Below are positions 15,724 through 30,716 of a DNA stretch of 39,305 nt, piece after piece. The notes beneath the pieces are model-generated. The model searched no databases and had not been told where the DNA came from. It saw nothing but the letters and a program-made list of their open reading frames with translations. Within the stretch, counting starts at the first letter, position 1, and each line of letters starts with the position of its first letter. Position numbers and translations under genes: made by a program. Source of the DNA: Patescibacteria group bacterium (lineage in GTDB: Bacteria; Patescibacteriota; Patescibacteriia; UBA1558; UBA10009); the NCBI GenBank assembly GCA_018817315.1, contig JAHITV010000010.1, forward strand, positions 1-39,305, in the 5' to 3' direction.

Positions 15724-15751
15724 TTGACTAATTTTTGAGCTTTGCTATAAT
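15724..15751 (+). promoter_or_regulatory. Sigma-70-type promoter of rplJL
   Basis: TTGACT (15724-15729), a 16-bp spacer, then TATAAT (15746-15751) preceded by TGC, which makes an extended -10. The start site would be near 15758, right at the 5' edge of the leader RNA. It is one of the strongest promoters in the window. Confidence 0.8.
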
Positions 15752-15757
15752 TTTTTT

Positions 15758-15916
15758 ATATTTACCACAGACAGCAGGTTCTGCTTATGAATCAATTCAA
15801 GCAGAGTAATTAGTAAAATAGCCAATTTTGGCTAAAAACTTGCCTGCCGAGGTAATCATTATATTAATTTAGTCTGTGGTAAGCCACAGATTTTATTTAT
15901 ATTTAACATAAGGTTT
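15758..15916 (+). ncRNA. Ribosomal protein L10 leader (autoregulatory 5' UTR)
   Basis: The leader folds as expected for an L10 leader. The closing stem is ACCACAGAC (15764-15772) with GTCTGTGGT (15872-15880), 9 bp perfect. An inner stem is GCAGG (15774-15778) with CCTGC (15843-15847). Local hairpins are TCTGCTT/AAGCAGA (15780-15786/15799-15805) and TAGCC/GGCTA (15819-15834). The conserved word GCCTGCCGAGGT follows. L10 with L12 binds such leaders to control the operon. The 3' strand of the closing stem is shared with a terminator hairpin. Confidence 0.8.
15873..15900 (+). terminator. Attenuator-like terminator inside the L10 leader
   Basis: TCTGTGG (15873-15879) pairs with CCACAGA (15884-15890) over a TAAG loop, followed by TTTTATTTAT. 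The left arm is the same sequence that closes the leader stem with 15764-15772, so stem and terminator are mutually exclusive. Confidence 0.7.
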
Positions 15917-26612: not shown

Positions 26613-26687
26613 GGTCCCTTCGTCTAGTGGTTAGGACGCCAGGTTCTCATCCTGGTAACAGGGGTTCAATTCCCCTAGGGACTACCA
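26613..26687 (+). tRNA. tRNA-Glu (CTC)
   Basis: A complete cloverleaf: acceptor GGTCCCT with AGGGACT (G-U at the first pair), D-arm GTC-TAGTGGTTAG-GAC, anticodon stem CCAGG/CCTGG with loop TTCTCAT (anticodon CTC, U33 present), and T-arm AGGGG-TTCAATT-CCCCT. The 3' CCA is encoded. It lies between murF and an accessory block. The 140 bp before it hold no gene that I can see. Confidence 0.95.
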
Positions 26688-27140: not shown

Positions 27141-27255
27141 CGGGAACTGGCCTAATGGCTAACCTGCCCGACTCGCCTACGGCGGAGCCGTGGCAGGCGG
27201 GGGCGCACGCTTCGGGTGCGTGAAAATCCGGGTTCGAGTCCCGGGTTCCCGACCA
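27141..27255 (+). tRNA. tRNA-like gene interrupted by a palindrome; isotype cannot be assigned (possible pseudo-tRNA)
   Basis: The acceptor stem CGGGAAC (27141-27147) pairs perfectly with GTTCCCG (27245-27251). The T-arm CCGGG-TTCGAGT-CCCGG is perfect, and the discriminator A plus encoded CCA follow. The 5' D-arm half GCCTAATGGCTA is present with the conserved GG. A GC-rich palindrome follows (27163-27197) where the D-stem 3' strand and anticodon arm should be. The next hairpin, CGCAC-GCTTCGG-GTGCG (27204-27220), looks like a class II variable arm: it has C rather than U at position 33 if read as an anticodon loop. AGGC at 27195-27198 could still close the D-stem. The total is 115 nt. Confidence 0.6.
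27163..27200. repeat. GC-rich palindromic element inside the tRNA-like gene
   Basis: Outer arms CCTGCC (27163-27168) and GGCAGG (27192-27197) enclose CTCGCC-TAC-GGCGGAG, a second stem with one bulged base. It is strikingly GC-rich against the AT-rich background and shares the CCGCC/GGCGG theme of the other mini-palindromes. Confidence 0.75.
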
Positions 27256-27256
27256 C

Positions 27257-27320
27257 CTTTCGGTAAGCTCAAGGTGAGTCTTGAGCGCAACCGAAAGTGT
27301 CCCGAGTCTACCGAGGGACA
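27257..27320. repeat. Two nested hairpins after the tRNA-like gene
   Basis: First hairpin: CTTTCGGT/ACCGAAAG outer arms with inner GCTCAAG/CTTGAGC. Second hairpin: TGTCCC/GGGACA around GAGTCTACCGA. Both resemble degenerate forms of the CCCTGAG...GTCGAAGGG repeat at 15650. Confidence 0.65.
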
Positions 27321-27342: not shown

Positions 27343-27378
27343 AAAAAAAGCCCTAGCAAACTGACGCTAGGGTTTTTT
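27343..27378. terminator. Bidirectional Rho-independent terminator
   Basis: CCCTAGC (27351-27357) pairs with GCTAGGG (27366-27372). T6 follows on the plus strand, and A7 precedes it, giving a T-run on the minus strand. It can end the tRNA-like transcript and the minus-strand gene at 27402. Confidence 0.85.
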
Positions 27379-27401: not shown

Positions 27402-27827
27402 TTACCGCAGGAGTATGATTTTTCTGGCCATAGAGATTGGGGGACCAGAATCTAAATTACATCGGAGTTGTACAAAGTATAAGCCTGAAGGGGGTTCATT
27501 GGTACCATCCCAATTAGTGACATTCCAGGTAGTGGAATAAAAGCCGGGTGGTAGTGCCCTATTTTCTTCCAGAGATGTTACTTCATTGCCAAGGATGTCA
27601 AATATTTTTACAGAAACACGTGCGTTTTCTCCTACATCAAACAGGATTTCAGTGGTTGAGTTAAAGGGATTAGGATACGCTGGATGAAGTGCAAATTTAA
27701 CTGTTGCCTGCAGTGGCGATGATGATACCTTGGAACTGTCAGCTACAGCACTGTTGTTTGACAGCAAGATCACGATGACAATCACCAAAAGTTGTTTGGT
27801 ACAAAAGACTTTTTTCAATGACATCAT
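27402..27827 (-). CDS. Exported protein consisting of a FlgD/T9SS-type C-terminal sorting domain
   Basis: A signal peptide (basic start, hydrophobic LLVIVIVILLSNNSAVADS) leads into a short linker and one beta-sandwich domain with AYPNPFNSTTEILFDV, VSVKIFDILGNEVTSL, PPGFYSTTWNVTNWDGTN and PPSGLYFVQL. This is the pattern of the FlgD Ig-like/type A sorting domain of the type IX secretion system, normal at the C-terminus of large secreted proteins of Bacteroidota and relatives. Here it makes up the whole 141-aa mature protein. The start has a perfect AGGAGGG six bases upstream, unlike the core genes. Composition and family point to horizontal transfer. Confidence 0.78.
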   Translation of the reverse strand: MMSLKKVFCTKQLLVIVIVILLSNNSAVADSSKVSSSPLQATVKFALHPAYPNPFNSTTEILFDVGENARVSVKIFDILGNEVTSLEENRALPPGFYSTTWNVTNWDGTNEPPSGLYFVQLRCNLDSGPPISMARKIILLR

Positions 27828-30674: not shown

Positions 30675-30716
30675 AATTAAGGGAGGGTGCGAATTAATTC
30701 GCACCCTCCCTTAATT
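30675..30716. repeat. Perfect 42-bp palindrome
   Basis: Each 21-nt arm (30675-30695 and 30696-30716) is the exact reverse complement of the other, with core GGGAGGGTGCG and CGCACCCTCCC and no spacer. The right end continues into a perfect DnaA-box consensus (TGTGGATAA, 30716-30724). No T-run follows on the plus strand. Confidence 0.85.

Follow-up and report, generated by a model that had tools for sequence, protein, structure and literature searches.

Within the window (the whole 39-kb stretch of DNA analyzed, i.e., contig C41 of the host genome), positions 27141–27255 of the plus strand hold a tRNA-Pro(CGG) gene in which the D-arm alone is interrupted, by a 39-nt GC-rich palindrome. We favor, with a probability of roughly 0.65, the reading that a mobile palindrome recently inserted into a non-essential tRNA-Pro(CGG) gene, abolishing or impairing the tRNA; the mobility of the palindrome, the recency of the insertion and the loss or impairment of function are the elements of this reading that we infer. 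That the locus is more than a chance resemblance follows from the presence of the uninterrupted gene in seven other genomes and from the recurrence of D-loop insertion, for which the reversed control was zero.

Structure of the interrupted tRNA-Pro(CGG) gene

Read 5′ to 3′, the 115-nt gene (encoded CCA included) runs CGGGAAC-TG-GCCT-AATGGCTAA-(39-nt palindrome)-GGC-G-CACGC-TTCGGGT-GCGTG-AAAAT-CCGGG-TTCGAGT-CCCGG-GTTCCCG-A-CCA, an identity that draws on the sequence itself, ARAGORN, in silico excision and alignment. The 5′ acceptor strand CGGGAAC (27141–27147) forms 7 of 7 pairs with GTTCCCG (27245–27251), which is followed by A73 and CCA up to 27255, and the T-arm CCGGG-TTCGAGT-CCCGG (27228–27244) closes with 5 bp. 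The features that define the tRNA family (RF00005)—a 7-bp acceptor stem, a T-arm with TTCRA and a 3′ CCA—are thus present, and the earlier note, made from the letters alone, had both the exact extent of this real feature and its perfect ends right. Its statement that no proper anticodon arm exists does not hold: 27206–27222 (CACGC-TTCGGGT-GCGTG) is a standard arm, with a 5-bp stem, the 7-nt loop TTCGGGT, U33 and G37 in place, and the anticodon CGG at 27213–27215, as ARAGORN, excision and alignment agree. What had been taken for a class II-like variable arm is this same anticodon arm; a class II arm is accordingly rejected, and the true variable loop, from alignment, is the short class I loop AAAAT (27223–27227).

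The D-arm, by contrast with these helices, is discontinuous. Alignment to intact relatives places the 5′ D-stem strand GCC(T) and the D-loop AATGGCTAA at 27150–27162, and excision and alignment place the 3′ strand GGC at 27202–27204; between the D-loop and this 3′ strand lies the palindrome (27163–27201, ends uncertain by about 1 nt), confirming the GC-rich palindrome that had been noticed in the D region. Excision of 27163–27201 in silico yields a canonical 76-nt tRNA-Pro(CGG) by ARAGORN, and this excised tRNA aligns without conflict to the uninterrupted tRNA-Pro(CGG) of seven other genomes (G012, G075, G050, G054, G005, G037 and G058).

Run on the window, ARAGORN names tRNA-Pro(CGG) correctly and places it at 27183–27255 with a false 5′ half, whereas the Rfam tRNA model scores 23.0 bits in the wrong register, below its 29-bit gathering cut-off because of the insert. 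Interrupted genes of this sort are therefore misread by tRNA finders, with the 5′ half wrong in one program and the gene missed by the other. In the lowest-energy fold (−59.4 kcal/mol) the acceptor, anticodon and T stems are kept and the palindrome forms an extra arm, while a fold with the cloverleaf and D-stem enforced reaches −53.0 kcal/mol. The uninterrupted tRNA is predicted to form the same alternative D-hairpin, so folding does not decide tRNA function, and the folding z-score of 27142–27258 (−1.75) is unremarkable.

Upstream, on the plus strand, an intact tRNA-Glu(CTC) follows murF (26613–26687; ARAGORN and Rfam), in a place conserved in relatives. Directly 3′ of the interrupted gene is a second palindrome (CTTTCGGT..GCTCAAG..CTTGAGC..ACCGAAAG, 27257–27297), and a plus-strand hairpin with a T run (27345–27378) resembles an intrinsic terminator by consensus match. 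No GIY-YIG ORF lies near the tRNA-Pro, and no integrated element is apparent next to it. Elsewhere in the window we observed a perfect 42-nt palindrome, AATTAAGGGAGGGTGCGAATT/AATTCGCACCCTCCCTTAATT (30675–30716), a ribosomal protein L10 leader (RF00557, 49.2 bits; 15747–15906), and, on the minus strand at 27402–27827, a protein of 141 aa whose Por secretion tail domain (PF18962, E 3.1e-7) is unexpected for the group.

A palindrome type that recurs in tRNA genes

The insert is of a repeated type, as the earlier note had supposed. The host genome (1.05 Mb in 54 contigs, 92% complete) contains 23 matches to CCYGCC..GGCRGG vs 1 in the reversed control, a minority of them inside tRNA sequences, and 53 relatives contain 1184 in total vs 267 in the reversed control. 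Palindromes at other sites in other genera match the 39-nt insert itself at 90–93% identity. Some of these lie inside tRNAs, namely in the D-loop of a tRNA-Lys (G077), in the T-loop of a tRNA in G006 and in the D-arm of a tRNA in G040, and this spread in and beyond tRNA genes, together with the uninterrupted relatives, bears out the proposal of a tRNA struck by repeat insertion.

A D-loop pattern in which CCYGCC..GGCRGG is flanked by GGTA and GAGC has 24 matches in 20 of 381 same-class genomes vs 0 in the reversed control; being fixed to one site, it yields counts that show recurrence rather than an unbiased site preference. At most of these sites the palindrome occupies the D-loop of a 5′ tRNA piece, after which a tRNA of the same isotype often follows intact, and the truncated copies are often accompanied by a small GIY-YIG endonuclease ORF. 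In a wider set spanning all bacteria, 49 of 97 distinct sites are tRNA-like upstream (a lower bound, as some initiator-tRNA sites were scored non-tRNA); within 900 nt, 16 of these have a GIY-YIG ORF and 28 a 5′ tRNA copy that is uninterrupted and nearly identical. A looser palindrome-to-T-loop pattern returned 60 matches, many of them not tRNAs on inspection, with a reversed control that was not empty. The general D-loop pattern matches nine viral contigs; a search of viral contigs for the tRNA-Pro insertion junction itself found no match. Two side observations concern the arrangement of such pieces: in G247 (L081, also L118) a 20-nt palindrome occurs twice in tandem in a single tRNA D-loop upstream of a GIY-YIG ORF, and truncated 5′ tRNA pieces end in a CCCGCACC-like motif just ahead of an intact tRNA in L065 (G067) and at C51:23424 and C53:8560 of the host genome (G000).

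The host genome offers several further cases. On C25 (~39560–40097; L006) the tRNA/GIY-YIG arrangement is seen in full: a tRNA-Arg(TCT) copy that lacks its 3′ acceptor strand bears a palindrome in its D-loop and another hairpin in its anticodon loop, and after it come first a GIY-YIG ORF (Pfam E 3.8e-13) and then the intact tRNA-Arg(TCT). On C53 (8508–8575; L051), a tRNA-Cys 5′ fragment with the D-loop palindrome ACCAGCTAAGCTGGT sits just upstream of an intact tRNA-Cys and shows a CAAG repeat resembling a target-site duplication. On C51 (67324–67600; L043), the first of three tandem tRNAs without encoded CCA, which may belong to a mobile element, carries the 20-nt D-loop palindrome CCTGCCTGCCGGCAGGCAGG. 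The same contig has, at 85260–85334, a tRNA-Arg-like sequence that pairs perfectly in its acceptor but has the hairpin GTCCCGCAAATGTGGGAC in place of a T-arm and adjoins an intact tRNA-Arg(GCG).

Six small GIY-YIG ORFs (on C25, C53, C51 with two, C23 and C16) lie 12–133 bp from a tRNA, the adjoining tRNAs being Arg-tct, Cys, Arg-gcg, Ser-tga, Trp and Leu-tag. The host total is seven by our local model and nine by Pfam, and adjacency of six of the nine has a chance probability of ~1e-7 under a simple model. A hand count in six other genomes put at least 14 of 38 small GIY-YIG matches within ~260 bp of a listed tRNA, and across 53 genomes the number of GIY-YIG matches and the palindrome excess rise together (rho 0.40, p 0.003, uncorrected for phylogeny). 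The window copy is unusual in this company: its helices other than the D-arm and its CCA are intact, it is the sole CGG copy found in the 92%-complete assembly, and no GIY-YIG ORF is nearby.

Probable dispensability of the tRNA and proposed course of the insertion

By ARAGORN, the host genome has 40 tRNA genes, the window tRNA-Pro included. Pro(GGG) is present. A look at which isotypes are lacking showed no Pro(TGG), Phe, Gly(GCC/TCC) or Leu(TAA) in the assembly, a gap in keeping with its being 92% complete. A second tRNA-Pro(CGG) copy was not found in this assembly, leaving the window gene as the only one, and CCG codons number 5.9 per 1000 in the long ORFs of the genome. Strong matches to tRNA-Pro(CGG) are absent from the same-family genomes G001–G003 (93–96% complete). 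Family members G001, G003 and G004 retain tRNA-Glu next to murF, yet no tRNA-Pro was found beside them, so these family members do not supply the same locus in uninterrupted form. The tRNA-Pro(CGG) isotype is probably dispensable, judging from the sequenced relatives, because same-family genomes seem to be without it.

We propose that such a dispensable gene was interrupted fairly recently, when a mobile GC-rich palindrome of ~39 nt, one of a broad family that appears to land recurrently in tRNA genes and tRNA fragments of Patescibacteria (CPR), would have entered the D-loop on its 3′ side. Recency is suggested by the fact that nothing else in the tRNA has decayed, i.e., by the state of the gene rather than by a pre-insertion version of the locus. 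The 115-nt transcript would then be a non-working or impaired tRNA, since the hairpin falls between the D-loop and the 3′ D-stem strand, where the core and elbow of a tRNA pack. CCG codons would be read by tRNA-Pro(UGG), presumably encoded in the unassembled part of the genome, although the 92%-complete assembly did not yield that tRNA. Two observations run counter to inactivation: the remaining helices are perfect, as are the T-loop, U33/G37, A73 and CCA, so that the gene gives no sign of decay, and the acceptor, anticodon and T stems survive in the predicted fold with the palindrome as an extra arm.

Alternative readings

The strongest alternative, which we hold to be improbable but worth serious weight, is that the tRNA still works, with the palindrome stacking as a side arm in the D-loop and the ribosome tolerating the protrusion. 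RNase P and ProRS would, on this account, recognize the intact acceptor/T half and the anticodon. The acceptor (7/7), anticodon arm (5/5), T-arm (5/5) and encoded CCA are indeed all kept, as are A73, G72, G35 and G36, the elements by which a bacterial ProRS is expected to identify its tRNA. The gene is the only one with a CGG anticodon that turned up in the assembly, CCG codons are common (5.9 per 1000), and a terminator-like site lies downstream. A Cytophagales MAG (L135, minus strand) moreover carries a tRNA-Gly(CCC) that stands alone and is whole apart from a 42-nt palindrome in its D-loop, and palindrome insertion into tRNA may therefore not be limited to Patescibacteria. This tRNA-Gly, the window gene and the host C51 tRNA are the cleanest whole palindrome-bearing tRNAs that have no intact copy of their own beside them, and they keep a working tRNA with an extra arm in contention. 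Against it, most other tRNA sequences with such palindromes are degenerate or stand beside an intact copy of the same isotype, the insert occupies the site of tRNA core contacts, same-family genomes seem to manage without tRNA-Pro(CGG), and the Rfam tRNA model falls under its cut-off.

A working tRNA is also part of a broader and more speculative reading, to which we assign a distinctly lower likelihood, namely that Patescibacteria harbor GIY-YIG homing elements that parasitize tRNA genes alongside palindromes that enter tRNA loops. Small GIY-YIG elements would cut tRNA genes and rebuild them, short palindromes in D-loops (and other tRNA loops) would make a gene resistant to cutting, and the window gene would represent a resistant allele, interrupted yet still working with its D-loop hairpin.

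That the insert is removed after transcription to give a 76-nt tRNA, a version of the earlier note's interrupted tRNA that is processed, is very improbable. Exact excision of 39 nt does restore a canonical tRNA, but any clean insertion would give the same result; no group I intron or other Rfam family matches the site above cut-off, so these families are rejected there, and at 39 nt the insert falls far below the length of a group I or II intron. The tRNA splicing endonuclease of archaea and eukaryotes is missing from bacteria, in which no enzyme that splices such an insert is known. Scarcely any weight falls on the idea that a tRNA-like RNA has been retained for some other role, in which the hairpin would be the functional part. 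Phage- or virus-type tRNA-like RNAs with other roles exist, and perfect tRNA ends around a remodeled D-arm would suit one; the anticodon arm, however, is also perfect and matches the tRNA-Pro(CGG) of relatives, which a repurposed RNA would not need, and no relative was found that keeps the same insert in this tRNA-Pro. Our analysis yielded no positive evidence for this very doubtful idea. An assembly artifact at a repeat is equally unlikely, even in a draft of 54 contigs: the long palindrome occurs once in the genome and thus offers no repeat to mis-join, the site is internal to the 39-kb contig with both tRNA halves fitting one tRNA exactly, and insertions of this kind appear at a similar place in tRNAs of independently assembled genomes.

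Comparison with known systems

A search of open-licence papers turned up no report of palindromes in CPR tRNA D-loops and no description of recurrent D-loop palindromes next to GIY-YIG genes, so the pattern of recurrent insertion is apparently undescribed. It offers a tractable case of selfish DNA in the tRNA genes of minimal genomes and a test of whether tRNA tolerates an extra D-loop arm. The nearest systems each share part of this pattern.

REP elements are moved by RAYT (Y1) transposases and are mostly extragenic. The palindromes studied here are likewise short, GC-rich and dispersed, and the host genome has Y1_Tnp matches, but 22 of 53 relatives have no Y1_Tnp match and hold 0–86 palindromes each, and the correlation between palindromes and Y1_Tnp is weak (rho 0.30). 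Because palindromes abound in some relatives that lack Y1_Tnp, REP/RAYT is rejected as the mover. Rickettsia palindromic elements, scattered as short palindromes through a reduced genome and entering its genes, are known for in-frame insertion into protein genes. The present insert resembles them as a short dispersed palindrome inside a gene of a reduced bacterial genome, and differs in its target (a tRNA), in the unrelated phylum, and probably in length and sequence.

SegB of phage T4 is a free-standing GIY-YIG homing endonuclease located between tRNA-Arg and tRNA-Ile (PMC2988022). GIY-YIG genes among tRNA genes are similarly found at six tRNAs of the host genome, whereas the window tRNA-Pro has none, and a palindrome inside a tRNA is not described for SegB in the part of that source consulted. 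An endonuclease ORF at an interrupted tRNA, the SegB-like arrangement, is seen at the host tRNA-Arg(TCT) and not at tRNA-Pro. Integrated elements leave tRNA gene fragments that tRNA finders easily misannotate (PMC9897764), and partial tRNA copies beside intact tRNAs recall these; the window gene, unlike such fragments, is whole except for its insert and has no integrated element visible beside it.

The closest parallel lies in the rRNA genes of CPR bacteria, which carry short insertions (<200 bp) without intron features, mostly at the tops or bases of stem-loops, some non-intron insertions carrying GIY-YIG ORFs (PMC11270868). The bacterial group is the same, and both there and here a short non-intron insert lies in a structural RNA gene. 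The gene hit is a tRNA here and an rRNA there, the insert here is a bare 39-nt palindrome, and the text of that study mentions neither tRNA, palindromes nor hairpins. Palindrome insertion into structural RNA genes is therefore a kind of event already known; what is apparently new is the tRNA as its target.
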